Assembly (NCBI GenBank): GCA_016720345.1
Contig: JADKKV010000005.1
Location: 434,001 to 498,000 of the forward strand
Reading direction: 5' to 3'
DNA: 64,000 nucleotides
Origin: Thermomonas sp.
GTDB taxonomy: Bacteria > Pseudomonadota > Gammaproteobacteria > Xanthomonadales > Xanthomonadaceae
A program made the position numbers and the translations under genes. Shown piece by piece: positions 43,171-58,961 of this stretch (position 1 is its first letter; every line of letters begins with the position of its first letter). The notes below the pieces were generated by a model, which did not search any database, was not told the origin of the DNA, and was given only the letters and a program-made list of their open reading frames with translations.

Positions 43171-45321
43171 TCAGGGCTGTACCGGGACCGAGGGCGTGAC
43201 CTGCACCGGCGGTTGCCCGGTCAGCGGCAGTTCCAGCATTTCGAAGCGCTGGCCAAGCGAACGGGTCAATTCCTCGACCTGGTCATCGGTCTCGAGGATG
43301 TACGGCACGATCATCATGATGAGTTCGGTCTTGTTGTCGCCGCGCTTCTCGGTCTTGAACAGGTTGCCCAGCAACGGGATGTCCTTGAGGTAGGGCACGC
43401 CGCTGTCACCGACGGTCTTGCGCTGCGCCATCAGGCCGGCGATCAGGATCGCGCTGCCGTCCTTCAGGCTGAGGCTGGTGGTATAGGAACGGTTGAAGAT
43501 CGCCGGCGAGTTGACCGAGGAGTCCGCCCCCACCGGCAGCGCTTCGCTGACCTCCTGGCGCAACTCGATGTCGACCCGGTCGTCGGAGTACACCACTGGC
43601 TTGACGTTGAGCAGGATGCCGGTCTTGCGGTACTGCACGGTCTGGATGATGCCGCTGTTGCCATCCGTCGTGATGCCGGAGGTGGCTTGCGATGAAATCG
43701 TCGGAACTTCGGTGCCGACGTCGAAACTGGCTTCCTCGCCACTCTTTACCATCAGTCGCGGGGTGGACAGCACGCTGATGCGGTCCTGGCTGGCCAGCGC
43801 CCTCAAGGACGCGCGGGTCTGCCCACCGATGTCGAGCAGGTAGGTCAACCCGGCACCGCCGGTACCGGTGACCAGGGTGCCGGAGCTGATGGTGCCATTG
43901 TACTTGCCGAGGTCGGCGTTCCTCGCCAGCCACGCGATCCCCAGTTCCTGGTCGTTGGTCAAGGTCACTTCGGCCACGGTGACCTCGATCATCACCTGAC
44001 GCGGTGCGCGATCCATCTGCTGGATCAACTGCAGCACGCGACCCCAGTCGGTCGCCGAGCCCTGGAAGATGATCGCGTTGCGCGGCTCGTCCAGCGACAG
44101 CTTGCCCTTGGCCAGGTCGCCACCGCCGGCCGCAGCGTTGGTTGCGGTTCCGGCCGCAGGCGGCGCCGCGCCGACCTGGCTGCCGTCGATCGCGTTGCGC
44201 GCCGGGTCGCGGGTGCCGCCAGTACCCGTGCGCACCCCGGTGATCGTCTTCACGATCTCGGCGGCTTGGGTGTTCTTGACCATGTAATAGAAAAGGCCGT
44301 CGCTGCCCGCGGTGGGATTGGGCTTGTCGATGCTGCGCGCCCATTCCACCGCATGCTCCAGCGCGCCGCGGTCGGCGGCGAACACCAGCACCGCATTCGC
44401 CGCATCCAGCGGCAGCACCAGGATCGCGGTGCCGCCCGCACCGGCGCTGTAAAGCGCCGCACCGTAGCCTTCCGCGCTCATGACTTCGACCAGCCGCTTG
44501 GCAAGGTCGGCGGCAGTGACGAACGCGGGCTCCAGCCTGGCGCTGACGCGGCCGCGCATGTAAGGCCGGTCGAGCACGCGGATCGCTTCACCAGCCTGCC
44601 GCACCAGCTCCGGCTTGCCCATCAGGATCACCGCATTGCGGCCGCTGTCCGCCTGGATGGTCAGGCCCTGGTCCTTGAATGCCACGTTCAGCAGGTTCAC
44701 CACGTCGCTGGCCCGCACCGAGTGCATTTCCATCAACTGGAACACCGGGCGGTGGCTGATGGGCACCTCGGGCAGGGTACGTCCGCTGACGACCAGCGGC
44801 GTGGCCCCGGTCGACGAATCGCGCGCGCGGTTGAAGAACACCAGGCCGGAGCTGAACTCTGTGGACACGCCATACGTGCGCAGCACCTGCACCGCGAGCC
44901 GGTAGAAATCCTGCGGCGACTGCGGTCCTTGCGTGCGCAGGGTGACCAGGTCCTGCATGCGCGCGACCTGCGGATCCATCTGGAAGCCGACGCCCAGGAT
45001 CGAACCGAAGAATTCGTTGATGAACGCCGGTACCGGCATGCCCTCGATGTTGACGTTCACCGCACCGCCCTTCAGCGGCGGCATCGCCGCGCCGCTGATG
45101 CCTGCGACCAGCGTGTTGTTGCCGCTGCCGGGGATTTCCGGGGTGCCGCTGCGCTGCAGGTCCTGGCGCTGAACGCCTCCCTGCTGCTGGCTGAACGCCT
45201 CGGTGCCAGGCGCCTGGTCCGGAAGCGGCAGCGGTGCGGGCAGCACGACCGGCGGCGTGGCGCAGGCGCCGGCCAACAGCGCGGTGGCGGCGGCGATCAA
45301 CAGGGGACGAAGGTTATTCAT
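43171..45321 (-). CDS. gspD: T2SS outer-membrane secretin GspD (XpsD-type, lipoprotein)
   Basis: 716 residues. The signal peptide ends LAGAC at residue 20, so the secretin is probably lipidated like XpsD. N-domains (about 85-400) include NIEGMPVPAFINEFFGSILG and RNAVILMGKPELVRQ. The secretin core (about 440-675) has VMIEVTVAEVTLTNDQELGI, VLSTPRLMVKSGEEASFDVG and the C-terminal GVPYLKDIPLLGNLFK. A low-complexity Thr/Gly/Ala insertion lies near 365-400. It forms the gated outer-membrane channel. It is the last T2SS gene, in the E-to-D order of the Xps system. Confidence 0.94.
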   Translation of the reverse strand: MNNLRPLLIAAATALLAGACATPPVVLPAPLPLPDQAPGTEAFSQQQGGVQRQDLQRSGTPEIPGSGNNTLVAGISGAAMPPLKGGAVNVNIEGMPVPAFINEFFGSILGVGFQMDPQVARMQDLVTLRTQGPQSPQDFYRLAVQVLRTYGVSTEFSSGLVFFNRARDSSTGATPLVVSGRTLPEVPISHRPVFQLMEMHSVRASDVVNLLNVAFKDQGLTIQADSGRNAVILMGKPELVRQAGEAIRVLDRPYMRGRVSARLEPAFVTAADLAKRLVEVMSAEGYGAALYSAGAGGTAILVLPLDAANAVLVFAADRGALEHAVEWARSIDKPNPTAGSDGLFYYMVKNTQAAEIVKTITGVRTGTGGTRDPARNAIDGSQVGAAPPAAGTATNAAAGGGDLAKGKLSLDEPRNAIIFQGSATDWGRVLQLIQQMDRAPRQVMIEVTVAEVTLTNDQELGIAWLARNADLGKYNGTISSGTLVTGTGGAGLTYLLDIGGQTRASLRALASQDRISVLSTPRLMVKSGEEASFDVGTEVPTISSQATSGITTDGNSGIIQTVQYRKTGILLNVKPVVYSDDRVDIELRQEVSEALPVGADSSVNSPAIFNRSYTTSLSLKDGSAILIAGLMAQRKTVGDSGVPYLKDIPLLGNLFKTEKRGDNKTELIMMIVPYILETDDQVEELTRSLGQRFEMLELPLTGQPPVQVTPSVPVQP

Positions 45322-45345
45322 TCGGATGGCGTTTCTTCACGGAAT

Positions 45346-45921
45346 TCAGTTGGGGCCGCGCGCCACCGGCGCCGCGGGCGAAGGCTTGGCCGGGACGACA
45401 GCGGGCTTGCCCGATGATGGAGTGGCCGCAGGCTTCCCAGGCGCGCCGATACAGGCATCGGATTCGGCGGTTGGCTTCTGGTACAGCTTGCGCAGGCGGC
45501 GGCAACCGTCCTTTTCGAACCAGATGCTGTCGCGATTGGCGGCGACCAGGGTCGCACCGTCGGGCATCGTCTCGCCGATGCCGACCCAGACCGACTTCTG
45601 TGCCTTGCCCGACTCGTTGACCGCCACCCTGAGCCGCGGCTGGGTGACGATGGCGGCCAGGGTCCATTGCGTCGCAGGCGCGGCGCGGCTCCCAGCCTGC
45701 CGCAGGTCACCCCAGTAGCGGGCACTCTGGACGGACTGGAACTGGTCGAAGCGGAAACGCCGGGTTTCCTGCGCGTTGGGCAACGACCACGGCGTATCGT
45801 CAGGCTTCGGCGGCGCGGCCGCGCGGATCGGCAGGAACAAGCCGATCACCGCGCCCACCAGCACGCCAGCGAGCGCCGCAGCGGCCAGTCCACGCCGGCG
45901 CACGAGCTCAGGCAGCGCCAT
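45346..45921 (-). CDS. T2SS inner-membrane protein GspN/GspC-like (XpsN-type)
   Basis: 191 residues. One N-terminal membrane helix (about 13-32) is followed by a periplasmic domain resembling the homology region of GspC: GIGETMPDGATLVAANRDSI then WFEKDGCRRLRKLYQ. It ends in a Pro/Ala-rich tail. It takes the XpsN place between gspM and gspD, where the protein connects the inner-membrane platform (L, M) to the secretin. There is no PDZ domain. The start ATG at 45921 overlaps the gspM stop by 14 bp; an ATG 7 codons upstream is possible. Confidence 0.75.
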   Translation of the reverse strand: MALPELVRRRGLAAAALAGVLVGAVIGLFLPIRAAAPPKPDDTPWSLPNAQETRRFRFDQFQSVQSARYWGDLRQAGSRAAPATQWTLAAIVTQPRLRVAVNESGKAQKSVWVGIGETMPDGATLVAANRDSIWFEKDGCRRLRKLYQKPTAESDACIGAPGKPAATPSSGKPAVVPAKPSPAAPVARGPN

Positions 45922-46516
45922 TGGCCGCCCCCTGCACGCCAAGCTTGCCCACGCGGTAATACGCCACCAGCGTCAGCGAGAAATTCGGCACGCCCTGCGC
46001 GAACGTAAACGAGAATTGCTCGATCGTGACCAGGCGGTCGGAGCTTTCCAGCAACCGCAGGATCTCCAGCATCTGCGCCTGGCTGGTCACCCCCCGCATC
46101 GTCACCGGAATGCGCCAGAGGCCACGTTGGCCGGCCATCTCCGTCGGCGGACGGGCTTCGGTGGTCAGCTTGCGGCCGTAGGCGTTCATCAGCTTGCGGA
46201 CCATCGCCTGCACTTCGGCCTGGGCAAGGCCAATCGTCGCGGCTGCGGGAATCTCCGCCTGCAGCGCCTTCTCCACCGCCTGCGCCGATTGCGCGCGCGC
46301 CACCCAGTACTCCTGGCCGGCGAGCGCGGTCATCTTGTACAGGTGCAGCGACCGCTCCTGGTAATGCGAATGCAGGTCGCGGCGCCAGTCCACCAGCACC
46401 AGGCACAGGTAGATGAAGGCGATGGCAGCAGCGGCAACGGTCCCCCAGCGCAGCCGGGGGTTGCCCTTCCACTCTTCGCGCATCGCCCGCAGCTGCGACG
46501 GGATCCGGGCACTCAC
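45908..46516 (-). CDS. gspM: T2SS inner-membrane protein GspM
   Basis: 202 residues from a GTG start that overlaps the gspL stop (GTGA). One membrane helix near 24-42 (WGTVAAAAIAFIYLCLVLVD) follows a short cytoplasmic end. The periplasmic part is helical and then ferredoxin-like (LLESSDRLVTIEQFSFTFAQ). It forms the inner-membrane platform with GspL and anchors the ATPase. Identity is from topology, size and place in the cluster rather than a strong motif. Confidence 0.78.
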   Translation of the reverse strand: MSARIPSQLRAMREEWKGNPRLRWGTVAAAAIAFIYLCLVLVDWRRDLHSHYQERSLHLYKMTALAGQEYWVARAQSAQAVEKALQAEIPAAATIGLAQAEVQAMVRKLMNAYGRKLTTEARPPTEMAGQRGLWRIPVTMRGVTSQAQMLEILRLLESSDRLVTIEQFSFTFAQGVPNFSLTLVAYYRVGKLGVQGAANGAA

Positions 46517-47622
46517 TTGCCGGTCCCCTTCCGAAGCGGGGCACGCAGGATGCGCGCCTTGACGACCACGCTGTCGGGCTGCCGGCCGATCTCCGCCGTG
46601 ACTGCCGAGAACCGCCCGGATCCTTCCCACGCGGACACGATCGCGCGCGGGTCCGGGTTGGCCATGCGCGCGGTCATTTCCAGCGTCTGCGCATCGGGCA
46701 CCTTCCACTCCAGCAACTGCCAATTGCCGCTGATCAAGCCGGACACCAGCGCCAGCAGCTCGACCTGGCCCGCCGGCGGCCGCATCGCGATGCGGGCATC
46801 GATCGCCGCGCGTGCCTTCATCGCACCGTCGCGCGCGTCGATGATCCGCTCCAGCGACTGCTCGCGCTCCGCGATGTCCCGGTCCAGCTGCCAGATCGAC
46901 ACCTTGAGCGCCAGGACCCCGACCAGCAGCGCGCACACCACCGCGGTCCCGATCCCCACCGCCGCCAGCGCCAGCATCCCGCCGTAACGACCGAACGCCT
47001 CGCCGACGCCGATCGCCTTCGGCGTTGTCCATGCGCGGTCGGCCAACGGGCTTGATACCGCCACCGGTGCCGCCGCCTCCGGTGGCAACCCGGCGCCACG
47101 GCGGAACTCGTTCCATTCCCCGAGCGAAGGCACCTGCGGCCACCAGCAGGATGCGGTCATCACCCCATCGCGCCAGACCCGGCCCTCGAAGCCCTCCTCC
47201 AGGGTGACCAGCTCGTCACCGCTCGCCCGCGGTTCGCCGCGGAACAGCGACTCCGGCCGCGCCCGTCGCGGCGAGGGCCGCGATTCGACGCCATCGACCG
47301 CCTCCACCTGCGACTTCGACCACGCCCACACCATGGCGCGATCGCCCACCCATTCCACGTGCGACTGCACGTCCGCGAACGGCGACCACCGCGCGACCGC
47401 CATCTCCACGAATCCGCGCCGCTTGCGCACCGGCACCGCCGCGCCGTCCAGCACCGTGTAGGTGCAGAAGCCGCGCGCGAGCACCCACTCCTGGCCGTTT
47501 CCACCCTCGGCCAGCTGGCGCAGGCCGCTACTTCCGCGCAGCCACCGGCTCGCGGAAAAGCCGCGAGCGAACCGGGTACGCAGCGTCGTTTCGCGACGAG
47601 GCTCGGGATTGGATGAGCTCAT
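46513..47622 (-). CDS. gspL: T2SS inner-membrane protein GspL
   Basis: 369 residues from the ATG at 47622. The cytoplasmic N-terminal part (about 1-205) is a divergent GspL region that would dock the GspE ATPase; one membrane helix (about 216-242) follows and then a periplasmic ferredoxin-like domain. The start overlaps the end of gspK by 95 bp, which is unusually long. If a later start were used the N-terminus would lose up to about 30 residues, but no good ATG lies near the gspK stop. Position between K and M supports the call. Confidence 0.78.
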   Translation of the reverse strand: MSSSNPEPRRETTLRTRFARGFSASRWLRGSSGLRQLAEGGNGQEWVLARGFCTYTVLDGAAVPVRKRRGFVEMAVARWSPFADVQSHVEWVGDRAMVWAWSKSQVEAVDGVESRPSPRRARPESLFRGEPRASGDELVTLEEGFEGRVWRDGVMTASCWWPQVPSLGEWNEFRRGAGLPPEAAAPVAVSSPLADRAWTTPKAIGVGEAFGRYGGMLALAAVGIGTAVVCALLVGVLALKVSIWQLDRDIAEREQSLERIIDARDGAMKARAAIDARIAMRPPAGQVELLALVSGLISGNWQLLEWKVPDAQTLEMTARMANPDPRAIVSAWEGSGRFSAVTAEIGRQPDSVVVKARILRAPLRKGTGK

Positions 47623-48604
47623 AGTCCTCACGCCAGGGGCGACCCCGGTCTTCACTGGGGGTCGATCGCCAATGCAACAGTCTCACCTGCCCCCCCTGGG
47701 AAGGCCACAGCTTCAACGTGCCTGACCTCGCAGGATACACGGCGACCGGCGCATCCAGCGTGGGCTGCAGGCCCAGGAACCGGAAAAACGCCGTGTCAGT
47801 CATGAACGGTTGCAACTTGCGGTAGGCGATCGCGCGCTCGGCCATTTCCTGGTCGACGCCGGGCAGCGTCCCCAGGACGCGGGCCGGTGCGGTGTTGACG
47901 TTCAGTACCGACACCGACTCGACGGTCAGGGTATCGCTCACATCGACCGGGGTCAGGAACGACAGCGCCTGCTCCCAGCCCGCCACCCGGAACAGCTCCA
48001 TCGGCGTGGCCAGCGGCAGGTTGGTCGGCGGCAGCATCCCGGCGCTGCGGTAGCCGTCCGCCTCCAGGCTGTCCAGGCGATAGAGGTTGTCGCGATCCTG
48101 GTAATCCATGATCCGGTTGAACAGCGCCGGCGCCGCCACCGGGCGCTGCTGGCCGCCCTGCGCCAGCAGCCGCTCCAGCCGCGCCGGCGAATTCCAGTTC
48201 ACCGCGAACAGGCCGTTCTCGTCCTGGATGGCGAAGCGGGCATTGCCGATCCCGCGGTAGGCGCGGCCATCCATCGCGATCTCGGTGCCCACCGGCAACA
48301 GCAGTCCGTTGCCCTCGATATCCGCGGGCGACTGCGACGGGCGCACGCCGTCCTCGCCGAACGACACCAGGTTGTCCACGGTCAGGCCGCCAACGGTCAG
48401 CCGCTGGGTGCCGATCAGGTACAGCACGGTGGCGCGCGTGCTGGCCATGTCCAACTGGTCCTGCATCCCGCGTTCGCGCTGGGTGGCCTGCTCCAGCAGG
48501 CGCGACGTCGTCGCGGCGATCGACCCCGCCAGCAGCGACAGCACCACCAGCATGGCCAGCACCAGCACCAGCACGAAACCGCCCTCGCGCCGCACCGGCC
48601 TCAT
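47528..48604 (-). CDS. gspK: T2SS minor pseudopilin GspK
   Basis: 358 residues. Class III signal MRPVRREGG cleaved before FVLVLVLAMLVVLSLLAGS, lacking the Glu5 of other pseudopilins, which is normal for GspK. The large globular insert contains FAIQDENGLFAVNWNSPARL and the helix-hairpin-like LPGVDQEMAERAIAYRKLQP, typical of this subunit. GspK caps the pseudopilus tip with I and J. The start ATG at 48604 overlaps the gspJ stop (ATGA). Confidence 0.9.
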   Translation of the reverse strand: MRPVRREGGFVLVLVLAMLVVLSLLAGSIAATTSRLLEQATQRERGMQDQLDMASTRATVLYLIGTQRLTVGGLTVDNLVSFGEDGVRPSQSPADIEGNGLLLPVGTEIAMDGRAYRGIGNARFAIQDENGLFAVNWNSPARLERLLAQGGQQRPVAAPALFNRIMDYQDRDNLYRLDSLEADGYRSAGMLPPTNLPLATPMELFRVAGWEQALSFLTPVDVSDTLTVESVSVLNVNTAPARVLGTLPGVDQEMAERAIAYRKLQPFMTDTAFFRFLGLQPTLDAPVAVYPARSGTLKLWPSQGGQVRLLHWRSTPSEDRGRPWREDYELIQSRASSRNDAAYPVRSRLFREPVAARK

Positions 48605-49227
48605 TCGTATTCCTCCTCGCCATACAGGCGGCGCGGCGGCTCCAGCGGACCCAGCACCGCCGCCAGCACCGGGCGCTCGCCGTCGGCGGCCTCGCGCACC
48701 AGCGCCACCAGCGCCGGCAACGCCCCGGGTTGCACCTTGCCGCGATTCGGCGGCCAGGTATCGAGTTGCCGCCAGTCCTCGGCGTAATAGGCGAACGTCG
48801 CCGCGCGTGCGCCCTTCAGCGGCAGGCTCCAGCGCTCGAGCCCGGCTTCCACGTACACCACCTCCGGCAAGCCGTCGGAGCTGGTGCGCAGCCGCCATTC
48901 GATCGGGGTCGGGCGCCCCGCCGGCGCATACAGCGGATTGAGGGTGGTTGCGGCGAAGCGGTCCGGCGCTCCGACGAAGGTCAGGTTCGGGGCCGCATAC
49001 AGTCCCTGCACGCTGTCGCGGAACCAGGCCTGGAACAGCGCCCGGCGGTCGATCGAACCGGCCTGCTCGCGCACGCGATCGTTCGCGATGCGGTAGCTGC
49101 CCAGCATCTGGAACATCAGCATGGTCGCGAACGAGACCAGCATCAGCGTGACCAGCATTTCCATCAGGGTGAAGCCGGCGGCGGTGCGGCCGGGCCGGCT
49201 GGGCACCCACGATCCGGGGCCGCTCAC
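48601..49227 (-). CDS. gspJ: T2SS minor pseudopilin GspJ
   Basis: 208 residues from a GTG at 49227, which overlaps the gspI stop (GTGA). The prepilin peptidase site is RTAAG|FTLMEMLVTLMLVSF with Glu5 present, after an 18-residue leader. The globular part includes LTFVGAPDRFAATTLNPLYA, characteristic of GspJ. An ATG 11 codons further upstream lies inside gspI. It forms the tip complex with GspI and GspK. Confidence 0.87.
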   Translation of the reverse strand: MSGPGSWVPSRPGRTAAGFTLMEMLVTLMLVSFATMLMFQMLGSYRIANDRVREQAGSIDRRALFQAWFRDSVQGLYAAPNLTFVGAPDRFAATTLNPLYAPAGRPTPIEWRLRTSSDGLPEVVYVEAGLERWSLPLKGARAATFAYYAEDWRQLDTWPPNRGKVQPGALPALVALVREAADGERPVLAAVLGPLEPPRRLYGEEEYE

Positions 49228-49730
49228 TGGTCGTCGCCCAGTGTCTGCACCTGCTTCCATCCGACCTGGCGCACCCGGAACGCCTGCAGCTGCCTGCCAT
49301 CGCGCAGTACCCGCACGTGGGCGTCATACAGCCCGACCAGGAAGATGCCGGGGGACCCGTCGCGGTGCGCGTTCGGCCGCGGCGGCTCCACCGGGACGCT
49401 GGTCCACGCCACCTGCAGGCTGCCCGCCTGGCGCTGGGCGCTGGGGATTTCCATCGGGTTGGTGCGCCGGATCATGTCGAGCGCCGACAACTGCGCGACT
49501 TCCACCTGCTGGCGTTCCTGGATCCGGTTGAGGGTGATGATGTTGGTCGACAGCCACCCGTACAGCGCCATCGCGCCCATGCTGAACACGACCAGCGCAA
49601 CGATCGCTTCCAGCAGGGTGAAGCCGGCCGCGTTGGCGGCACTGCCGCCTGGCCGGCTGAACGCCCGAGGGCTATGCCCGAGGGCCGGATTGAAGCCGCT
49701 TTCGCGATTCCTCGTAACCTGGCCGCGCAT
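49224..49730 (-). CDS. gspI: T2SS minor pseudopilin GspI
   Basis: 168 residues. The cleavage site is NAAG|FTLLEAIVALVVFSM with Glu5. The leader from the ATG at 49730 would be 36 residues, long for this family, and contains no other usable start. It is encoded partly by two copies of GCCCGAGGGC 13 bp apart (49665-49687 region), which suggests a small local expansion. The start overlaps the gspH stop by one base (TGATG). GspI nucleates the pseudopilus tip. Confidence 0.86.
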   Translation of the reverse strand: MRGQVTRNRESGFNPALGHSPRAFSRPGGSAANAAGFTLLEAIVALVVFSMGAMALYGWLSTNIITLNRIQERQQVEVAQLSALDMIRRTNPMEIPSAQRQAGSLQVAWTSVPVEPPRPNAHRDGSPGIFLVGLYDAHVRVLRDGRQLQAFRVRQVGWKQVQTLGDDQ

Positions 49731-50116
49731 CACGGCTTCACCCGCGGGTCGCAGAACGGCGACGCCACTGCGATCACGCGCTTGCCGTGCTGGTTGCCGA
49801 TTTCCACGCTGCCGCCTTCGCATACGCCGTTGGCGTTGACCTTCCACGGCTCCGGTACCCGCAGCGTCCAGTCGCCGGCGACCCGCAACGGCGCGTCCTT
49901 GCCCTTCAGTGCTTCGCCATCGAGGACGATCACCCGGCCGCTGGCGCGCGCGTCGCCGGGCAGCGCGCGGATCTGGTCCAGCAGCGAATCCAGTTCCGCC
50001 TGCCGGCGCCAGCTGTCGATGCTGCGGATGGCCGCCGGCGCGACCATCGCGGTGGCCAGGCCAAGGATGGCCAGCACCACGATCATCTCCAGCAAGGTGA
50101 AGCCATCCCGGCGCAT
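49730..50116 (-). CDS. gspH: T2SS minor pseudopilin GspH
   Basis: 128 residues. Short leader MRRDG cleaved before FTLLEMIVVLAILGLATAMV, with Glu5. The C-terminal domain is small, with a Cys near each end of its last third (GVCEGGSVEI and SPFCDPRVKP). GspH sits between the GspG shaft and the I-J-K tip. The start ATG at 50116 is 10 bp after the gspG stop; an in-frame start 18 codons upstream overlaps gspG. Confidence 0.88.
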   Translation of the reverse strand: MRRDGFTLLEMIVVLAILGLATAMVAPAAIRSIDSWRRQAELDSLLDQIRALPGDARASGRVIVLDGEALKGKDAPLRVAGDWTLRVPEPWKVNANGVCEGGSVEIGNQHGKRVIAVASPFCDPRVKP

Positions 50117-50126
50117 GCGCGCGGCG

Positions 50127-50591
50127 TTACGGGGTGCCGGCCTGGTCCGGCAGGTAGCCGAGGTCGGCATCCTGGCCCTCGCCGCCGGCCTTGGCGTCGG
50201 CGCCCCAGGAATACAGCACGAACGGGTTGTCGCCGGTGGCCTGCGGGGCGTACTGATAGGGCTGGCCCCACGGATCCTGCGGCACCGCCTCGTCGAGGTA
50301 GGGACCGGCCCAGCCGGGCACCGCTTCCGCGCTGGCGGGACGTGTGGTCAACAGCGCCAGGCCTTCCTGCTCGGTCGGCCAGCGGCTGATGTCAAGGCGC
50401 ATGGTCTGCAGGGCGCCGCGCAGCATCTTGATCTGGGTCTGCGCGGTCTGCACCTTGGCCTTGTCGGCCTGTCCGAACAGGCGCGGACCGACCAGGCCCA
50501 TGATCAGGCCGATGATCACCAGCACGACGATCATCTCCAGCAGCGTGAAGCCGGCCTGGCGCTGGATGGAAGGAATGCGGCGACGATGCAT
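50127..50591 (-). CDS. gspG: T2SS major pseudopilin GspG
   Basis: 154 residues. Leader of 14 residues, then FTLLEMIVVLVIIGLIMGLV with Glu5. The C-terminal part has the GspG hallmarks ISRWPTEQEGLALLTTRP, YLDEAVPQDPWGQPYQY and the calcium-site region FVLYSWGADAKAGGEGQDAD. It polymerises into the pseudopilus that pushes substrates through GspD. A 30-bp gap separates it from gspF. Confidence 0.94.
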   Translation of the reverse strand: MHRRRIPSIQRQAGFTLLEMIVVLVIIGLIMGLVGPRLFGQADKAKVQTAQTQIKMLRGALQTMRLDISRWPTEQEGLALLTTRPASAEAVPGWAGPYLDEAVPQDPWGQPYQYAPQATGDNPFVLYSWGADAKAGGEGQDADLGYLPDQAGTP

Positions 50592-50621
50592 CGGTAATGC
50601 CCCTGAGTGGTTGCGTTGCGG

Positions 50622-51818
50622 TCAGACCGCGAGGTCGTTGGCGCTGGTGATGGCCAGGATCACGCCGAGGATGATGGTGCCGATCATGCTGCCGATCACC
50701 AGGATCGCGATCGGCTCCAGCAGGATCAGCACGCGCTTCATCCGGTTGCGGCCCGCCTCTTCATACAGCCTGGCCAATGAATCGAGCATGGACGCCAGCT
50801 TGCCGGAGCGCTCGCCGACCCGGATCAGGTTGTAGCCGGTGGCGGTCAGCGCGTCATGGTCCTCCAGCGCATCGGCCAGCGAGGCGCCGCCGCGCACCGC
50901 GCGGGTGACCTCGCCCATCCGCGCGTGCCGCTGCGGCAACTGCAGGCCGGACTGGGCCAGCTCCAGCCCGCGCATCAGCGGCACCTTGTTGCCCAGCAGG
51001 GCACCCAGCACCTTCGCCCAGCGCGCGGTGTCGGCCTCGACCAGCCACGGCCCGACCACCGGCCAGCGCGACAGCGCGTCCATCGTCCGCGCACGCAGTT
51101 CCGGCTTGCGCAGCGCCCACGCGGCGCCGGCGCCGGCAGCGGCGAGCAGCAGCAGCAACAGCCAGAAGTTCTCGCGGGTCCAGGTGCCGAACGCCAGCAC
51201 CACCCACGCCAGCAACGGCAGGTCGTTGGCCTGTTCCAGCAGCGAGGCGAACTTCGGCACCACGAAGATGAACATGATCGCGACCGCGGCGATCCCGGCC
51301 ACCACCAGCACCGCCGGGTAGATCAGCGCATTGCGCATCTCGTTGCGCAGCTGCTGCTCGTATTCCATCTGCGCACCGGCATCGCGCAGGGCCTTGCCGA
51401 GCTCGCCGGTCATCTCGCCCGCGCGCGCCAGCTGCACCACGTATTCGGGCAACGGCAGGCCGCACTTGGCCAGGGTCGCCGAGAACGCCTGCCCGCGCTG
51501 CAGGTCGCGCGACATCCCGGCGAACGCCGCCACGATCCGCGGGTGGTGCGCACCCAGCGCCTGGCTGCCGACCGCATCGGCGATGCTGACCCCGGAGGTC
51601 AGCATGGTCGCCAGTTCCTGCAGGGCCAGGATCACGTCGCCGTGGCGCAGCCGCCCGCGGCGCTCGTTGCCGCCGCCGGCCTCGCCGGAGCGCACCTCGA
51701 TCACCGACAGCCCGCGCCGCTCCAGCGCGCGCGCGGCCTCGCGCTCGTTGTTGGCGCGCAGCATGCCTTCCAGGCTGATGCCCTCGGCGTTCATCGCCTG
51801 GTAGTGGTAGCGCGGCAT
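50622..51818 (-). CDS. gspF: T2SS inner-membrane platform protein GspF
   Basis: 398 residues. It begins MPRYHYQAMNAEGISLEGML and contains two repeated T2SSF helical domains (about 60-185 and 265-390), each followed by membrane helices. Conserved stretches include VVQLARAGEMTGELGKALRD and LIRVGERSGKLASMLDSLA. It couples GspE ATP hydrolysis to pseudopilus assembly. It starts 4 bp after the gspE stop. Confidence 0.94.
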   Translation of the reverse strand: MPRYHYQAMNAEGISLEGMLRANNEREAARALERRGLSVIEVRSGEAGGGNERRGRLRHGDVILALQELATMLTSGVSIADAVGSQALGAHHPRIVAAFAGMSRDLQRGQAFSATLAKCGLPLPEYVVQLARAGEMTGELGKALRDAGAQMEYEQQLRNEMRNALIYPAVLVVAGIAAVAIMFIFVVPKFASLLEQANDLPLLAWVVLAFGTWTRENFWLLLLLLAAAGAGAAWALRKPELRARTMDALSRWPVVGPWLVEADTARWAKVLGALLGNKVPLMRGLELAQSGLQLPQRHARMGEVTRAVRGGASLADALEDHDALTATGYNLIRVGERSGKLASMLDSLARLYEEAGRNRMKRVLILLEPIAILVIGSMIGTIILGVILAITSANDLAV

Positions 51819-51822
51819 CGGC

Positions 51823-53527
51823 TCAGGTCCCCGCCACGCGCAGCACTTCCTCCACCGTGGTCAGGCCCTGCCACGCCTTCAGCAGGCCGTCGTCGCGCAG
51901 GAAGCGGTGGCCTTCGTCGCGCGCCAGCTTCTTCATCTCGTTGACGCTGGCGCCGCTGACGATCAGGTGCTGCATCGCCTCCGACACCGGCACCATCTCG
52001 TAGATGCCCAGGCGCCCGCGGTAGCCGGTGTTCATGCAATTGGGGCAGCCCACCGCCTCCATCCAGCGCGGCGCCATGCCCGGCAGCACCTTGTGCGCGA
52101 ACACCGCGGCCTCGGCTTCGATGTTGTGCGGCACCGCATGCGGGCGCGCGCACTGCGTGCACAGGCGCCGCACCAGCCGCTGCGCCTGCACCGCGCGGAT
52201 CGGGGTGGCGACCAGGAACGGCTCCACGCCCATGTCGATCAGGCGGGTGAACGCGCTGATCGCATCGTTGGTGTGCAGCGTGCTCAATACAAGGTGTCCG
52301 GTGAGCGCCGCCTGCACCGCGATCTCCGGCGGTCTCGAGGTCGCGGATCTCGCCGATCATGATCACGTCCGGGTCCTGGCGCAGGATCGAACGCAGCGCA
52401 TTGGCGAAGGTCAGGCCGATGTCCGGGTGCGCCTGGATCTGGGTGATCGCGGGCAGCTGGAATTCGACCGGATCCTCGACCGTGATGATCTTCTTGAGGC
52501 CGTCGTTGGCCGCGGCCAGCGCCGCGTACAGCGTGGTCGACTTGCCCGAACCGGTGGGACCGGTGACCAGCACGATGCCGTTCGCCTCCGCGGTCCACGC
52601 CTGCATCATCGCCAGGTGGTCGGATTCGAAGCCGAGCCGCTCCAGCCCCAGTTCCTTGCGCTCCTTCGGCAGCAGGCGCATCACGATCGATTCGCCATGC
52701 ACGCCGGGCAGCGCCGACACGCGGATGTCCATCTCCTGGCCGCCGACGCGGGTGGACAGGCGCCCATCCTGCGGCAGGCGGCGTTCGGCGATGTCCATCC
52801 CGGAAATCAGCTTGAGGCGCGAGGCGACCGCGTCGAAGCGGTCGCGCGGCAGCTGCAGGCGGGTATGCAGGACGCCGTCGATGCGGAAGCGCACCGCGAA
52901 GATGCGCTCCTCCGGCTCCAGGTGGATGTCCGAGGCGCGCTGCTCGACCGCCTGCGCCATCAGGTTGCTGACCAGCTCGACGACCGGCGCTTCCTCCGCC
53001 ATCGCGCGCAGCTGCTGTTCGTCGCCGCCGCCCCACTCGTCGGAACGCGCGTGGTGGGCCAGCGCGTCCAGCATCCGCTCCAGGTCTTGCGCGCGGCACA
53101 GGCACCAGAGCACCTTGCGCCCCGGGTAGGCGTGGCGCATGGCTTCGCGCAGCGCCGGCAGCAACGGGTCGCGGGCGGCGCAGAACAGGTCGGAGCCCTC
53201 GCCCGGCCACACCAGCAGTTGCTGGTCGAGCAGCCAGTCGATCCCCGTTGGCGCCTGCGCCGCGGTGAGGCGGACCATGTCCTCGTCGGGCGCCGGCACG
53301 TCGGCCCCCATCACCGGCAGGCCCAGCTGGCGGCTGAGCACCTGCAGCAGGTTGTCCTCGCTGACCGCGCCGATCCGCATCAGCACGCTGCCGATCCGCC
53401 CGCCAAGCTTCAGCTGCAGGGCCAGCCCGCGTTCGAGGTCGGCGGGGCCGACCAGCCCGGCATCGAGCAACAGCTCGCCCAGCAGGCGGTCGCGCGGGGC
53501 GACCCGCAATGCGGCGTCAGAGGACAT
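51823..53527 (-). pseudogene. gspE: T2SS ATPase GspE (XpsE-type), interrupted by a 1-bp frameshift
   Basis: Traffic ATPase that drives the T2SS. From the ATG at 53527 the frame encodes residues 1-400: N-terminal domains, Walker A GPTGSGKST (323-331), and Walker B region [12 protein letters not shown] (385-396). After LETA the frame is lost. Removing one C at 52326-52327 (+ strand) restores [18 protein letters not shown] and the rest, including the zinc motif pair CTQC and CPNC, for about 567 residues in total. As given, the product would lack the arginine-rich and zinc-binding C-terminal part. All other T2SS genes are intact, so this may be a sequencing error rather than a true pseudogene. 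Confidence 0.85.
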
Positions 53528-54344
53528 CGGCGAATCCCTTCTTGAGCTTGGTGAACGCCCACAGGCCGAACAGGTACACGGCCACGGCGACCAGCGAATA
53601 CTGCGCCACAACGTCCCATTGCGGCCACTGCGCGGCGAACAGCACCCGCCGCAGCTGCTCCACCGGGATCGTGATCGGGTTGACCGCCAGCCACGGCTGC
53701 GCCGCCGCCGGCATCGCCTCGCGCGGGTAGAACACCGGGCCCAGGAACATGGTGACCATCACCAGCGGGCCGATCAGCTGCGCCAGGTCGCGCAGGTACA
53801 CGCCAAGCGCGGCCACCAGCCAGGCCAGGCCCAGCAGCAGCACCGCAAACGGCAGCAGCACCAGCGGCAACGCCAGCAGCGACCATGACAGCCCGGTGCC
53901 CAGCAGGCCATTCAGCGCCACCAGCACCAGCAGCGCCATCGCCGCATGGAACAGCCCGGCCAGCAGGCTGACCCAGCCCAGCGTCTCCAGCGGGAACACC
54001 ACCTTGGTGACGTAGTTCGGCTGCCCGGTGACCAGGGTCGGCGCGCGCGACAGCACCTCCGCCAGCAGCCCATGCACCACCATCCCGGCCAGCAGGCGCA
54101 GCGCGAACATCCCGATCCCCTGCGCTTCCGCGCCCGGCCAGCGGGTCGGCGCGATCACCCCGAACACCAGGGTGAACACCCCCAGCATCAGCAGCGGCGT
54201 CAGCAGCGACCACAGCGACCCCAGCAACGAGCCGCGGTAACGCCCGCTGATCTCGCGCCAGGCCAGGATGCGGATCAGCGCCCGATGGCGCCAGGGATGG
54301 GACAGGCTGGCTTGCACGCGGAAGGGTCGATTCTCTGGGGCCAA
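53517..54344 (-). CDS. wzm: ABC-2 type polysaccharide export permease Wzm
   Basis: 275 residues with six predicted membrane helices. It has the ABC-2 pattern ILAWREISGRYRGSLLGSLW at the N-terminus and FLGPVFYPREAMPAAAQPWL before the last helices. With Wzt (56897-58210) it exports a finished polysaccharide across the inner membrane. The two subunits are split by the divergent secreted-protein gene, which is unusual because wzm and wzt are normally adjacent. It overlaps the gspE start by 11 bp and is the first gene of the 27.6-kb minus-strand run. Confidence 0.9.
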   Translation of the reverse strand: MAPENRPFRVQASLSHPWRHRALIRILAWREISGRYRGSLLGSLWSLLTPLLMLGVFTLVFGVIAPTRWPGAEAQGIGMFALRLLAGMVVHGLLAEVLSRAPTLVTGQPNYVTKVVFPLETLGWVSLLAGLFHAAMALLVLVALNGLLGTGLSWSLLALPLVLLPFAVLLLGLAWLVAALGVYLRDLAQLIGPLVMVTMFLGPVFYPREAMPAAAQPWLAVNPITIPVEQLRRVLFAAQWPQWDVVAQYSLVAVAVYLFGLWAFTKLKKGFADVL

Positions 54345-54780
54345 CGGCCGGATCGGATGGACAAGCGGTTCCCCGGGTGGCCAGGCGGCACCGAAGCGGG
54401 CGGCGCAAGTCTACCTGCGCACCCGCCTGCCCGGCCGATTCACCCTGAACAGCGCCTGACATGCCCCGGACCGTCGGGTTTCGGCCGTAACGTCATGATG
54501 TGACGCAACTTCCGCTCAGGACGCCAACCTGTTCAGAATACTGGGGATTGACGATTCCTTAACCCTGCGTTAGCGTCCGCATTGCAACTTGATCGACCAG
54601 GGGAGTAGGGGGAGCTGCGTCTGGCCTGTGGCCAGCGCGGAATCCGTATCAGATACGTGAGAATGCAGTACCTGGAAGACACCGGTTGCGGGGGGCCCTG
54701 CCTCCTGGTACCGGGCTAGGGCCAGCAATCGGAGCAAGTTGCGTCATTCCGCTTTACCAACTGACAGGAGTTAGTTAGAC
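54345..54780 (+). promoter_or_regulatory. Divergent promoter region and structured leader of the secreted-protein gene
   Basis: A 436-bp gene-free region. A candidate sigma-70 promoter for the plus-strand gene is TTGACG (54548-54553), 17-bp spacer, TAGCGT (54571-54576), giving a leader of about 200 nt. The leader has perfect small hairpins: CTGGCC/GGCCAG (54621-54635) and CGTATC/GATACG (54645-54657), plus GGCCCT/AGGGCC (54694-54723). An 11-bp perfect inverted repeat, TGACGCAACTT (54501-54511) and AAGTTGCGTCA (54736-54746), brackets the promoter and leader. The ribosome-binding site AGGAG is at 54766-54770. I could not place a clear promoter for wzm on the minus strand. Confidence 0.5.
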
Positions 54781-56766
54781 ATGTCTAGCATGAAGAAGAA
54801 CGTCCTCGCCGTTGCCCTCGTGGCCGGTCTGGGCCTGGCCGGCGGCGCTGCGGCCTACAACTACGGCACCAGCCTGGCCGATGATTCGGCAGCTGCTGCT
54901 TTCTCGGATGCCGCCCTGCAAGATGCTGAAAACGTCTCTTACGAGATGCTCGTGGCCTCCGCCTACAAGTGGACCATGAAGGAAGGCCTGGTTTTCGACA
55001 TCGAAACCGCCGACAACGGCGCTGCCGTCACCGAAGGTTTCACCGTCCGCGTTGCCCTGAACCAGCGCTGCAGCCCGCACGACACGGCGACCAACCCGGC
55101 CAGCCCGCCCACCAACGTCGGCGTTTGCGCTCCGACCGGCGATGGCGCCCAGTTCGACGCCAGCATTCCGATCGTCGCGGGCGACCTGGTGCTCGACCCG
55201 ACCTTGGCCTTGGAGTGGAAGGTTACGTTCGATGGCTACACCAGCGGTAACACCGTTGCGACGTTCCGCATCGAGCCGCTCGTCACCAACCCGACTGGCC
55301 CGGGCACCAACGGCACCACCATCACCTTCACCTGGAACAACGCGCACCTGACCAGCCTGAACGAGTTCGCGGCCACCGCCGCTGCCGGCGGGAATGCCAA
55401 GGTCGATGCCGAGTTCTGGATGGTGAACGTCTCGAACGACGCCCGCTTCGTCAACTCGACCCGTTCGCGCACCATCCTCGAAAGCCGCAACGGCGTGGTT
55501 GCCTGCGCAACCCCGAATCCGGCGGAAATCGACAAGTACATCGATGTCGCCGACAACTTCAACGAAGACCAGATCCCGAAGACCCGCTTCAGCTGGGACG
55601 GCAAGCTGGGTTCGGCCGACGACGCCTCGACCGTTGCAGCCTTCCAGCTGCCGTTGGGTTCCGATTACGACGCGCAGGTCATCGACCTGGGTGACGTGAC
55701 CCTGAGCACCGGTTCCATCACCGGTACCGGCACCTTCCAGTACTGGGGTTCGGGCAACATCTACAACGGCGTGACCGACGTGTTCCAGACCGTGATCGAG
55801 GCTGGCGCTGGCAACGACTGGGCCGCGTTCGACAACAGCTTCACCGACGACGACGACGTCTTCCTGGTCAACGGCACCTGCTCCAGCGGCGTGATCATCG
55901 ACCGTGGCCGGGTCAGCGGCACCACCGTGACCTTCAACTACAGCTCGCAAGAAATCGAAAATGCGGCTCCGGGCTTCATCAACGTCGGCGGCGCCAGCCG
56001 CAACCTGACCGTCTGCGGCTACGTCGATACCGACACCATCATCGACGACCACAACAACCAGGTCACCACCACGTTCTACCGCGTGGGCATGTACCCGGCC
56101 AATGGCACTGCCCCGGGCGACGCCAGCACTGGCTACCCGACCTCCGGGTACAGCTCTGGCGTGGGTTCCAAGACCATGGCCGGCGAAACCTGCATCCTGC
56201 TGCCGCTGCGCTACAACGGCTCGTCGATGGAGATCTTCACCATCAACCCGGGCAGCAACACCACCCAGCGCAGCTTCGTCCGCCTGACCAACCGCAGCAT
56301 GACCGACGGTTACGTCTCGCTGGAAGGCATCGACAACAACGGTGATCGTGGTGCCTCGCAGGTGCGCGTGTGGGTGCCGGCCGGCGCCTCCGTGCAGCTG
56401 GATTCCAAGGATCTGGAAGACGGCACCAACGGCGCCGTCGGCGCCTGGGGTACCGGCGCCGGCAAGTGGCGCGCAGTCGTGACCGCGGAGTTCCCGGGCC
56501 TGGTTGCCACCAGCCTGGTCAACACCTCCGGTGATCGCACCCTGCAGAACATCACCGACAGCGACACCCGCGGTGAGCAGATCGAGCGCGACTGGGCCGA
56601 AGGCACCTGGGGCAGCGAGCCGGGCGAGCGCCCGTCGGACTACGTCCAGGAGTTCGAGCCGGACTTCCACGGCAATGGCGACTACACCGGTGAGCCGGGC
56701 GGTCCCGATGCCGACGACGGTCCGGCCGGCGGCCAGACCGGTGCCGATGGCAACCCCGGCCTGTAA
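54781..56766 (+). CDS. Abundant-type secreted acidic protein, candidate S-layer-like T2SS substrate
   Basis: 661 residues; family not recognised with certainty. A Sec signal peptide (MSSMKKNVLAVALVAGLGLA...) has a probable cleavage after A25. The mature protein is Asp/Asn/Thr/Gly-rich, acidic, apparently beta-rich, with six Cys and very few Lys. The C-terminal ~50 residues are Gly/Pro/Asp/Glu-rich (from about 612). Strong expression signals are present: a good promoter candidate, long leader, AGGAG site, perfect terminator and pyrimidine-ending codons (GCT, GTT, GGT) more frequent than in neighbours. It lies between wzm and wzt and is divergent from a complete T2SS. S-layer or surface-matrix protein is inference; an adhesin or other exoprotein is possible. 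Confidence 0.75.
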   Translation: MSSMKKNVLAVALVAGLGLAGGAAAYNYGTSLADDSAAAAFSDAALQDAENVSYEMLVASAYKWTMKEGLVFDIETADNGAAVTEGFTVRVALNQRCSPHDTATNPASPPTNVGVCAPTGDGAQFDASIPIVAGDLVLDPTLALEWKVTFDGYTSGNTVATFRIEPLVTNPTGPGTNGTTITFTWNNAHLTSLNEFAATAAAGGNAKVDAEFWMVNVSNDARFVNSTRSRTILESRNGVVACATPNPAEIDKYIDVADNFNEDQIPKTRFSWDGKLGSADDASTVAAFQLPLGSDYDAQVIDLGDVTLSTGSITGTGTFQYWGSGNIYNGVTDVFQTVIEAGAGNDWAAFDNSFTDDDDVFLVNGTCSSGVIIDRGRVSGTTVTFNYSSQEIENAAPGFINVGGASRNLTVCGYVDTDTIIDDHNNQVTTTFYRVGMYPANGTAPGDASTGYPTSGYSSGVGSKTMAGETCILLPLRYNGSSMEIFTINPGSNTTQRSFVRLTNRSMTDGYVSLEGIDNNGDRGASQVRVWVPAGASVQLDSKDLEDGTNGAVGAWGTGAGKWRAVVTAEFPGLVATSLVNTSGDRTLQNITDSDTRGEQIERDWAEGTWGSEPGERPSDYVQEFEPDFHGNGDYTGEPGGPDADDGPAGGQTGADGNPGL

Positions 56767-56793
56767 TCTGCCGTAAGCAACACCCGTAGCACC

Positions 56794-56824
56794 ACGGGCG
56801 GCCTTCGGGCCGCCCGTTTTTTTT
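56794..56824 (+). terminator. Strong Rho-independent terminator after the secreted-protein gene
   Basis: Perfect 10-bp stem ACGGGCGGCC / GGCCGCCCGT (56794-56803, 56808-56817) with a stable TTCG tetraloop and a run of eight T. It lies 27 bp after the stop and separates the secreted-protein transcript from wzt. Confidence 0.95.
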
Positions 56825-56896
56825 GGGAAGCCGCCGCGGCAGCCACCAACGGCACCGACGTACAATGCATGCCGCGCCCTTGCGACCCATGCCTTG

Positions 56897-58210
56897 ATGC
56901 CAGCCGACACCATCGCCGCCGACGACTTGCCCGCGATCCGGGTGGACGCCGTCGGCAAGGTCTTCCGGACCTGGGCCAGTCCCGCGCAACGGCTGATCGT
57001 CCCCGCCCTGCATCGCAGCGGATCGCTGCTGGCGGCCGCGCTGCCGCGCGTCGCCGCGCGCCTGCATGCGTCCGCGCACCGGCGCATCCACGTCCACCAG
57101 GCGCTGCACGACATCAGCTTCGACCTGCGCCGCGGCGAGGCGCTGGGCATCATCGGCCTCAACGGCAGCGGCAAGAGCACCCTGCTGCAGATCATCGCCG
57201 GCGTGCTGCCGCCGACCTGCGGCCGCGTGCACACCCATGGCCGCATCGCCGCCCTGCTGGAGCTGGGTTCCGGCTTCAACCCGGAGCTGACCGGGCGCGA
57301 GAACATCCACATCAACGGCGCGATCCTGGGCCTCACCCGCGCCCGCATCGATGCGGTCATCGACGACATCATCGACTTCGCCGACATCGGCGACTACATC
57401 GAGCAACCGGTCAAGACCTACAGCTCCGGCATGGCCCTGCGCCTGGCCTTTTCGGTGCAGGTGCACGTGGAGCCGGACATCCTGATCGTGGACGAAGCAC
57501 TCGCGGTCGGCGATGCGGCGTTCCAGGCCAAGGCGATGACCCGGATCCAGCAGATCCTGGCGCGCGGCACCACCCTGTTGTTCGTCGGCCACGACCTCAA
57601 CGCCCTGCGCGCGTTCTGCCAGCGCGCGATCCTGCTCGAGGACGGGCGCATGGCGATGCTGGGCGCACCCGAGGAAGTGATCGAGGAATACCTGTTCCGG
57701 GTGCACGCCAAGGCGGCGCGCGACGGCCAGGCCAAGCCGATCCGGATCGCCGAGGGCTTCCGCAGCGAGGACGGCGGCGTGCTCGGCCTGTCGCTGCAGG
57801 GCGGCGCGCGCCACCTGGCGCTCAACTGCGGCGATCCGCTGGAGGTCGACATCGACCTCGAGGTGCAGGCCGCGCTGGCGGATGCCGCCTGCATCATCGA
57901 CATCCTCGACGAGCGCGGGGTCCCGCTCAGCGGCCGCCGGATCCGCCTGCCGGAGTCCGCCGACGGCCCGCAGCGGCTGCGCCTGCGGGTCGCCTTCCGC
58001 GCCGAACTGGCGCGTGGCATCTATCGCGTGCGCGCGCGCCTGGTGCAGGCGCCGGACCGCCACCAGCACCATCGCCGGGTGCTGTGCCGCTACGAATCGG
58101 ACCTGTCGTTCGAGGTCATCGACAATTCCATCGAGCGCTTCAGCGGGCTGTTCCCGCTGCCGGCGGAGGTGGTGGTGCAGCGGCTGGGCACGGATGACCA
58201 CCGCGCCTGA
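56897..58210 (+). CDS. wzt: Polysaccharide ABC transporter ATP-binding protein Wzt with C-terminal glycan-binding domain
   Basis: 437 residues. The ABC domain (about 12-255) has Walker A GLNGSGKST (87-95), TYSSGMALRLAF as signature and DILIVDEAL (194-202) as Walker B. The long insertion before Walker A is typical of Wzt/TagH. The C-terminal ~180 residues (from about 265) form a beta-rich Wzt_C-like domain that in O-antigen systems recognises the finished, end-modified chain. It pairs with wzm at 53517-54344. A TTG immediately precedes the ATG at 56897; I prefer the ATG. It overlaps the sulfotransferase start by 17 bp. Confidence 0.92.
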   Translation: MPADTIAADDLPAIRVDAVGKVFRTWASPAQRLIVPALHRSGSLLAAALPRVAARLHASAHRRIHVHQALHDISFDLRRGEALGIIGLNGSGKSTLLQIIAGVLPPTCGRVHTHGRIAALLELGSGFNPELTGRENIHINGAILGLTRARIDAVIDDIIDFADIGDYIEQPVKTYSSGMALRLAFSVQVHVEPDILIVDEALAVGDAAFQAKAMTRIQQILARGTTLLFVGHDLNALRAFCQRAILLEDGRMAMLGAPEEVIEEYLFRVHAKAARDGQAKPIRIAEGFRSEDGGVLGLSLQGGARHLALNCGDPLEVDIDLEVQAALADAACIIDILDERGVPLSGRRIRLPESADGPQRLRLRVAFRAELARGIYRVRARLVQAPDRHQHHRRVLCRYESDLSFEVIDNSIERFSGLFPLPAEVVVQRLGTDDHRA

Positions 58211-58961
58211 GCCGCGCATCCGCTTCCTGCTTGGCGGTGTGCAGAAGGCCGGCACCAGCGCACTGGCGCGCTACCTGTCCACCCACCCACGCCTGCGGCT
58301 GCCGATCGACAAGGAAGCGCATGTGTTCGATGCACCGGACTTCGACGAAGGCTGGACGCCGGAACAGGTCGACCGGCGCTACGCGGACCGGTTCGACGAC
58401 GCCGGTGCAGGCGCCATCCACGGCGATGCCACCCCGTTCTACGTGATGCACCCGCGGGTGGTCGCGCGGATTGCCCGCTACAACCCGGGCATGCGCTGGA
58501 TCGTGTTGCTGCGCGACCCGGGCGAACGTGCGCTCTCGCACTTCCACATGGAACGCCAGCGCGGCCTGGAGGGCTGGCCGCTGTGGCCGGCCCTGCTGCT
58601 GGAACGCTGGCGGCTGCGCGGCCACCACGAGGACCTGCAGCGAGGCTCGCCGTTGCGCCGGCACGGCTACCGCCTGCGCGGCGACTACGCGCGCCAGCTG
58701 GACGTGCTGTATTCGCATTTCCCGCGCGAACAGGTGCTGCTGCTGCGCAGCGATCGCCTGCGCGAACAGCCGGCGGCCTGCGTACGCGAGGCCTGCGCGT
58801 TCCTCGGGGTCGAACCACCCGCGGCGGATGCGTCCTACCCGCCGGTGTTCGTCGGCGACTATCCGGCGCCCGGCCACTGGACCCGCGGCCTGCTGCGCTG
58901 GCTGCTGCGCCACGAGCGGCGCGCTTTGCGCACCCGCTACGGCATCGCCTTCGACGACTGA
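58194..58961 (+). CDS. Sulfotransferase domain protein
   Basis: 255 residues. The PAPS-binding 5' loop is GVQKAGTSALARYLSTHP (residues 15-32) and the 3'-phosphate motif is RWIVLLRDPGERALSHF with R107 and S115, matching heparan-sulfate/NodH-type sulfotransferases. It would transfer sulfate from PAPS to a sugar hydroxyl or amine. Translation is coupled to wzt (17-bp overlap), so its likely substrate is the glycan exported by Wzm/Wzt. It is convergent with metB, leaving 7 bp between stops and no terminator visible. Confidence 0.87.
   Translation: MTTAPEPRIRFLLGGVQKAGTSALARYLSTHPRLRLPIDKEAHVFDAPDFDEGWTPEQVDRRYADRFDDAGAGAIHGDATPFYVMHPRVVARIARYNPGMRWIVLLRDPGERALSHFHMERQRGLEGWPLWPALLLERWRLRGHHEDLQRGSPLRRHGYRLRGDYARQLDVLYSHFPREQVLLLRSDRLREQPAACVREACAFLGVEPPAADASYPPVFVGDYPAPGHWTRGLLRWLLRHERRALRTRYGIAFDD

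Follow-up and report, generated by a model that had tools for sequence, protein, structure and literature searches.

A probable S-layer cassette with its own type II secretion system in an O-antigen locus of Thermomonas

Layout of the locus

We analysed a 64,000-nucleotide stretch, here called the window (G000:C5:434001-498000), of the 2.66 Mb genome of a Thermomonas sp. Eleven genes of a type II secretion system (T2SS) lie on its minus strand in the order E-F-G-H-I-J-K-L-M-C-D, preceded on the same strand by wzm. Divergent from these, all on the plus strand, stand a 661-codon gene, then wzt, then a sulfotransferase gene. The comparisons below suggest that this gene encodes a surface-layer (S-layer) protein with its own secretion system, set into an O-antigen locus. 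The features are as follows.

43171..45321, minus: gspD, outer-membrane secretin (Pfam Secretin 6e-40; TIGR02517, 309.6 bits against a cut-off of 351.35)
45346..45921, minus: gspC-like gene, without Pfam match, placed by position and conservation in syntenic loci
45908..46597 (start approximate), minus: gspM (T2SSM_b; Pfam PF10741, 28.8 bits)
46513..47655, minus: gspL, the subtype marker, without Pfam match, placed by position and conservation (strong matches in 25 of 296 genomes of the bacterial family)
47528..48715 (start approximate), minus: gspK (Pfam T2SSK, 26 bits)
48601..49260, minus: gspJ, without Pfam match, placed by position and conservation
49224..49700 (start approximate), minus: gspI pseudopilin (Pfam N_methyl)
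49730..50170, minus: gspH pseudopilin (Pfam N_methyl)
50127..50591, minus: gspG, major pseudopilin (Pfam T2SSG 5e-32)
50622..51818, minus: gspF (Pfam T2SSF 4e-45)
51823..53533, minus: gspE ATPase, frameshifted near 52318-52330 (two open reading frames (ORFs) that are consecutive parts of TIGR02533)
53517..54344, minus: wzm, ABC-2 O-antigen export permease (Pfam ABC2_membrane 5e-24)
54548..54576, plus: candidate promoter TTGACG-N17-TAGCGT, invariant in six aligned sequences
54580..54746, plus: structured RNA leader in the 5′ untranslated region (UTR) of the S-layer-like gene, identified by covariation
54781..56766, plus: gene for the 661-aa S-layer-like protein (signal peptide, immunoglobulin (Ig)-like beta-sandwich region, C-terminal ASRT/ASRAH-like domain, acidic tail)
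56794..56817, plus: intrinsic terminator, a 10-pair stem with 9 G-C pairs, then T's
56897..58210, plus: wzt with a Wzt_C glycan-recognition domain (Pfam ABC_tran and PF14524)
58194..58961 (start approximate), plus: sulfotransferase (Pfam PF00685, PF13469)

The first-pass annotation had called the T2SS complete and Xps-type. All eleven gsp genes are present beside wzm, but gspE is frameshifted, its halves matching TIGR02533 at positions 95-327 and 331-485 in different frames. At the other loci with both halves, these lie 9 nt apart in one frame without exception (42 of 42), which makes the frameshift private to this genome; the cultured relative Thermomonas beijingensis (L032), for one, has an intact gspE. 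Compared with the nearest relative, one half of gspE carries 7 amino-acid and 25 synonymous differences over 164 codons and the other 20 and 87 over 401. Because the codon differences are alike on both sides, both halves appear to be under like selection, and we take the frameshift to be recent or a sequencing error. The Xps label is doubtful. GspD falls below its NCBIfam cut-off (309.6 versus 351.35 bits), as does GspF, XpsF included (263.6 versus 424 bits), and the genome encodes another T2SS beyond the window (L122, at about G000:C5:419.5-430 kb, with GspM at 422463), which is 25-46% identical to the window system in the five parts that matched. Since this second T2SS is present elsewhere in the genome, the window T2SS is a candidate dedicated system.

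The divergent gene encodes the acidic signal-peptide protein that the first-pass annotation had described, and the near-ideal terminator, wzt and the sulfotransferase gene behind it likewise stand. The mature protein has a predicted mass of 66.8 kDa and an isoelectric point of 4.09, with 83 acidic and 33 basic residues and six cysteines; the signal peptide and its A-x-A motif were judged by eye, and residues 4-18 form a helix in the structure model. Sequence searches of Pfam, NCBIfam, PHROGs and PDB gave no useful match, and none of 24 family members has a convincing Pfam hit. Structure prediction and search, which the first-pass annotation had proposed, gave a model with an Ig-like beta-sandwich region, a C-terminal ASRT/ASRAH-like domain (about residues 480-579) and a low-confidence acidic tail (about 593-661). 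For the C-terminal domain the predicted fold is an eight-stranded beta-sandwich of ASRT type; residues of about 245-470 had no convincing fold match, although a missing match proves nothing. Family members differ strongly outside the C-terminal domain, within which Arg501 is invariant and Asn504 nearly so.

According to the parts of the literature searched, the ASRT/ASRAH superfamily is proposed to bind sugars, and its described secreted versions are dyads or tetrads, whereas here a single domain ends a secreted protein. The domain also occurs in several copies within large open frames of 694-1848 codons (L059, L060 and L061; G004, G049, G056, G084 and G110), and these frames may encode further surface proteins that use it.

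Distribution of the protein, its T2SS and related types

A search with the 661-aa protein itself matched 27 of 296 sampled Lysobacteraceae genomes. A 24-row profile (A1) matched 45 at E up to 0.001. Of these, 25 were counted as members, 23 of them with the gene in a single piece, one with it split over two frames (G109) and one with two pieces that lie on different contigs (G187). Left out of the count were 19 weak matches (E 8e-6 to 9e-4) and G110, which has the C-terminal domain alone. The protein family is present, on this count, in 25 of the 296 genomes, and 7 of the 16 genomes of the same genus are members. In a second family of the order (that of G611), 8 of 147 genomes gave long matches to an extended profile, A2. 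Three loci of this second family (L183 in G785, L189 in G701 and L190 in G804) have two or three of the genes next to a T2SS of this kind, in tandem or separated by a few kb.

On the fetched stretches, each of up to 20 kb, T2SS genes accompany the member gene in 21 of the 25 genomes (remnants only in G018), and wzm does so in 20. The stretches without a T2SS are those of G004, G056 and G084, which belong to one genus, and of G187, whose contig is short. Six of the eight second-family genomes also have T2SS genes on the stretch; the member genes of the other two stand at contig starts and are followed by wzt and a sulfotransferase gene. As a marker of the T2SS subtype, GspL matched 43 of the 296 genomes, 25 at 140 bits or more, 17 at 62-116 bits and one at 20 bits. 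The 25 genomes with a strong GspL and the 25 with a member overlap in 24, and the GspL subtype and the protein are both absent from nine genomes of the same genus.

Eight of these nine genomes have Wzm. In the six such regions that were fetched, wzm stands next to wzt at the corresponding site, together with ompA, cbs or a piece of cbs (and metC in three). Five of the six have no gsp gene there except an 83-residue GspE-like match beside ompA, which member loci share. In the sixth, G260 (L227), an N-terminal remnant of gspE (residues 10-156) stands beside wzm-wzt, which we read as a sign of loss. The T2SS and the protein gene thus behave as one module, which the gap between wzm and wzt either contains or lacks.

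The weaker GspL matches mark a related type of locus. Fourteen of these regions were fetched (L193-L206), and in 11 a signal-peptide protein (429-488 aa or similar) is encoded directly after gspD; in the other three the contig ends first. Seven of the 11 proteins were hit by profile A2 (E 2.5e-8 to 0.08) and four were placed by position alone, and most of the genes are then followed by metC, wzm and wzt. In the published text searched, this is the arrangement given for npdA, with 12 gsp genes upstream. A profile of the 24 members aligns from end to end with one built from nine of the 11 NpdA-like proteins, at a probability of 98.4 and an identity of about 18%. Without signal peptides the pair still scores 68 (probability 94.7), against 19.8 when reversed and 17.6 at most in eight column shuffles. 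These alignments support end-to-end homology between the 661-aa protein and the NpdA-like S-layer protein (SLP) type, a type named by locus layout and not by the NpdA sequence. The structure model of an NpdA-like protein is poor overall (predicted local distance difference test score 59), and its C-terminal part alone was used. At all eight NpdA-like genes that were printed (L193, L194, L197, L200, L201, L203, L204 and L206), the palindrome CCTAAGCTTAGG followed by AG stands just before the start codon and overlaps the likely ribosome-binding site.

A search of the class with PF10741 for further S-layer T2SSs matched 57 of 352 genomes; 40 regions were fetched, one being the second T2SS of the genome studied here. 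Outside the Lysobacteraceae, locus L146/L192 (G587:C42) has a similar T2SS with wzm and wzt, a 479-aa secreted protein encoded between gspE and gspD and, judged by eye, probable manC and rmlD genes. That protein aligns with A1 by hhalign at probability 96.5, signal peptide included, and with the NpdA-like type over 77 N-terminal columns only (probability 52); no relative was found in 19 further genomes of its family. A plasmid search gave no match for an NpdA-like protein or for the 661-aa protein.

A conserved leader RNA

The first-pass annotation had placed a candidate promoter and a structured leader in front of the gene. No sigma-70 consensus was found, and the promoter remains a candidate on the invariance of its TTGACG and TAGCGT blocks. 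The leader is on firmer ground. Between the TTGACG block and the start codon it is strongly conserved in the window and five close relatives, and the consensus fold of these six sequences has 49 pairs, four with compensatory changes. A covariance model built from the six finds one site in the genome itself. Run on 47 sources, it recovers another 15 leaders at E 4.5e-4 or better, all of them directly in front of a family gene; the next match (E 0.0035) lies in the gspE region of L197. In a 21-row alignment, 92.0% of the cells are paired, 22 of 33 pairs carry double changes, none of 500 shuffles reaches any of five measures, and slid structures pair at 43.4% at most. This alignment was fitted to the covariance model, and an independent check was hence made with MAFFT alone: 13 of the 15 outer leaders gave the same two main stems, with compensatory changes in 10 of 21 pairs.

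A second model, R2, was run with stricter filters in 198 genomes of the bacterial family, a setting in which absence elsewhere is no proof, and gave a single match in each of 15, placed 28-49 nt upstream of a family member. Further matches precede members in L051 and L054 and at the second-family loci L183, L184, L187 and L191; there was no match in NpdA-like loci, in control stretches or in the member loci L046, L055, L063, L186, L189 and L190. All searches combined place the leader before 22 of the 25 member genes. Three Rfam matches were all below gathering scores and were taken as chance, and a non-exhaustive literature search found nothing like this S-layer leader. It is close to established that the leader is a conserved structured RNA unmatched in Rfam. 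A chance GC-rich fold was also considered, and rejected on the covariation and the position specificity.

An S-layer reading and its alternatives

The minus strand continues past gspD with genes for glycan synthesis.

39409..43143, minus: 1244-aa multi-domain glycosyltransferase, downstream of gspD (GT2 and GT1_4 domains; relatives in several syntenic loci)
36545..39430, minus: domain matches to an NTP_transferase-HAD fusion, a GmhA-like SIS protein and a GHMP kinase, which we take to be heptose-activation-like, a pathway name from general knowledge

The same strand also carries a GT2 gene, an acyltransferase gene and two ORFs that match methyltransferases. Because these glycosyltransferase, heptose-activation-like, methyltransferase, acyltransferase and GT2 genes stand beyond gspD, the stretch reads as an ATP-binding cassette (ABC)-type O-antigen cluster. 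The 1244-aa protein looks sulfotransferase-like by eye at its N-terminus, followed by a coiled-coil-like stretch with weak SMC matches (about residues 300-540) and two glycosyltransferase domains; it may set or end the O-antigen chain.

Known systems are compared here through the parts of the published texts that were searched. The A-layer locus of A. salmonicida is alike in holding wzm, T2SS genes from spsE on, vapA, a wzt of 438 aa, an ORF with a sulfotransferase domain and a 1122-aa glycosyltransferase. In A. hydrophila AH-1 the T2SS genes run from E to M, then Orf2 and D, which matches E to M, C and D in the window, where the gspC-like gene holds the position of Orf2 in the sps cluster. 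As at the Aeromonas A-layer, the T2SS and the putative S-layer gene lie between wzm and wzt. Unlike in Aeromonas, the protein, wzt and sulfotransferase genes are divergent from the T2SS here, and the long glycosyltransferase gene lies beyond gspD. AH-1 differs further in a truncated wzm upstream and an intact one downstream, and the text searched mentions no sulfotransferase for it. The likeness to Aeromonas is one of layout, and those texts mention no structured leader.

NpdA, known from Delftia, Paracidovorax and others, is a secreted protein encoded beside a gsp cluster, and its assembly is reported to need lipopolysaccharide (LPS). The published table of its orthologues, as seen, includes 'Lysobacter species' and several Rhodanobacteraceae but not Thermomonas. 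Here too a gsp cluster adjoins the gene, yet it is divergent, with wzm in between, and this difference from NpdA (WP_011797163) is one of cassette layout. Slr4 of marine Gammaproteobacteria, likened by description and not by sequence, is also encoded beside a conserved T2SS cluster; no O-antigen exporter is mentioned for it in the text searched. A non-exhaustive literature search found no report of an S-layer in Thermomonas. The first-pass annotation knew of no such arrangement in this bacterial family, a statement that the NpdA orthologues in 'Lysobacter species' and the near-identical Aeromonas layout qualify. The locus is not without precedent: the layout in Aeromonas is almost the same, and NpdA-type loci occur in the same bacterial family. 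Three things are new: the divergent subfamily with its form of cassette, an ASRT-type domain at the C-terminus of two SLP types that is a candidate for the glycan anchor, and the RNA leader.

We consider it likely that the window holds an S-layer cassette within an O-antigen locus, comprising an S-layer protein, a dedicated T2SS for its export and a tether to O-antigen exported by Wzm-Wzt. Conserved synteny, the near one-to-one co-occurrence with the T2SS subtype, the module at the wzm/wzt gap, the Aeromonas layout and the profile homology to the NpdA-like type all argue for it. The same comparative evidence supports the central proposal of the first-pass annotation, a surface-layer protein exported by this T2SS and perhaps anchored by the glycan.

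Several observations weigh against it. The S-layer reading is wholly comparative, and NpdA, VapA and Slr4 are likened by layout or description, not by sequence. In G004, G056 and G084 the gene stretch has no T2SS genes, GspL lying elsewhere in the genome, and G018 (L046) keeps the protein, wzm and wzt while most of the T2SS is gone, an apparent loss. The leader was not found before the genes of G018, G182 and G224, nor at the second-family loci L186, L189 and L190. Besides the genome itself, the A1 search of 370 genomes of the class returned 22 weak matches, all at profile positions 1-137, and missed L146. Divided into parts, the alignment with the NpdA-like type reaches a probability of 84.5 for the N parts alone and 34.0 for the C parts alone (reversed controls 0.1 and 0.9). 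The ASRT family gave no Pfam hit in 24 members at E up to 1, and the ASRT likeness is one of predicted fold only; the presence of an ASRT profile in the Pfam library was unchecked, and a sequence profile can miss distant members. The 'dominant' product of the first-pass annotation is weakly supported, the codon bias being moderate: the effective number of codons is 27.7, near EF-Tu (25.6) and EF-G (27.3) and against a median of 31.0 for 65 background ORFs, while the codon adaptation index of 0.687 exceeds the background median (0.621) and lies below the ribosomal mean (0.749). Finally, given the frameshifted gspE, this strain may fail to export the protein unless the shift is a sequencing error.

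A T2SS-exported biofilm-matrix or adhesive surface protein, binding O-antigen without forming a two-dimensional lattice, would account for some of these data, and we hold it to be rather unlikely. In favour of this rival are the likeness of the N-terminal and middle parts to Ig-like adhesins and pilins and the tandem copies of the C-terminal domain in large ORFs from other genomes. Foldseek also listed RbmA and a biofilm-associated protein, although TM scores of about 0.3 or less mean that these rows say little. A single copy beside a dedicated T2SS is instead the layout of known S-layer loci, and the end-to-end homology to the NpdA-like type also speaks for an S-layer protein.

T2SSs commonly export many enzymes, and on that general ground the window T2SS might be an exoenzyme exporter whose link to the 661-aa protein is incidental. 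General exoenzyme export was rejected as an account of it given the second T2SS in the genome; with the GspL subtype and the protein sharing 24 of 25 genomes, and both missing from nine genomes of the same genus, we regard an incidental link as very improbable. Hardly any weight falls on the protein being an enzyme or a binder of exogenous carbohydrates: its predicted C-terminal fold belongs to a superfamily proposed, in the text searched, to bind sugars, whereas no enzyme family matches, the sequence varies strongly outside that domain, and the gene is linked to a T2SS and O-antigen genes.

On the S-layer reading, the 661-aa protein would be made with its signal peptide, carried across the inner membrane by Sec and folded in the periplasm, where disulfides probably form, since cysteine counts are even in 24 of 24 family proteins and 9 of 9 NpdA-like proteins (related sequences, one with no cysteine). 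The divergently encoded dedicated T2SS, separate from the other T2SS, would then export it, and once outside it would build a surface layer held in place by O-antigen exported through Wzm-Wzt, with the ASRT/ASRAH-like domain as the likeliest O-antigen-binding module. The structured leader in the 5′ UTR may support or tune high-level synthesis. We infer Sec export, periplasmic folding, T2SS export and O-antigen binding from known T2SS and S-layer biology, for which Aeromonas is the closest tested system.

More speculatively, the ASRT/ASRAH-like domain could anchor both S-layer protein types, this one and the NpdA-like one, to O-antigen, perhaps by forming tetramers on the fourfold axes of a tetragonal lattice, and the leader could be a new cis-acting RNA that couples synthesis to export or envelope state; we advance this tentatively. 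According to the texts searched, TM1070 is a tetramer, and both the layer of Delftia and the A-layer of A. salmonicida are tetragonal.

The similar wzm, T2SS-SLP and wzt layout in Aeromonas and Lysobacterales, together with the sites that have no module, suggests that such cassettes travel with ABC-type O-antigen loci, or repeatedly settle in and vanish from them. To our knowledge, how T2SS-exported S-layer proteins recognize LPS is largely unknown. If the proposed anchor holds true, one small domain would account for two S-layer protein types in testable molecular terms, and the sugar it binds could be sought in the glycan made by the adjoining genes. The leader RNA would be a first handle on the bulk production of such proteins.

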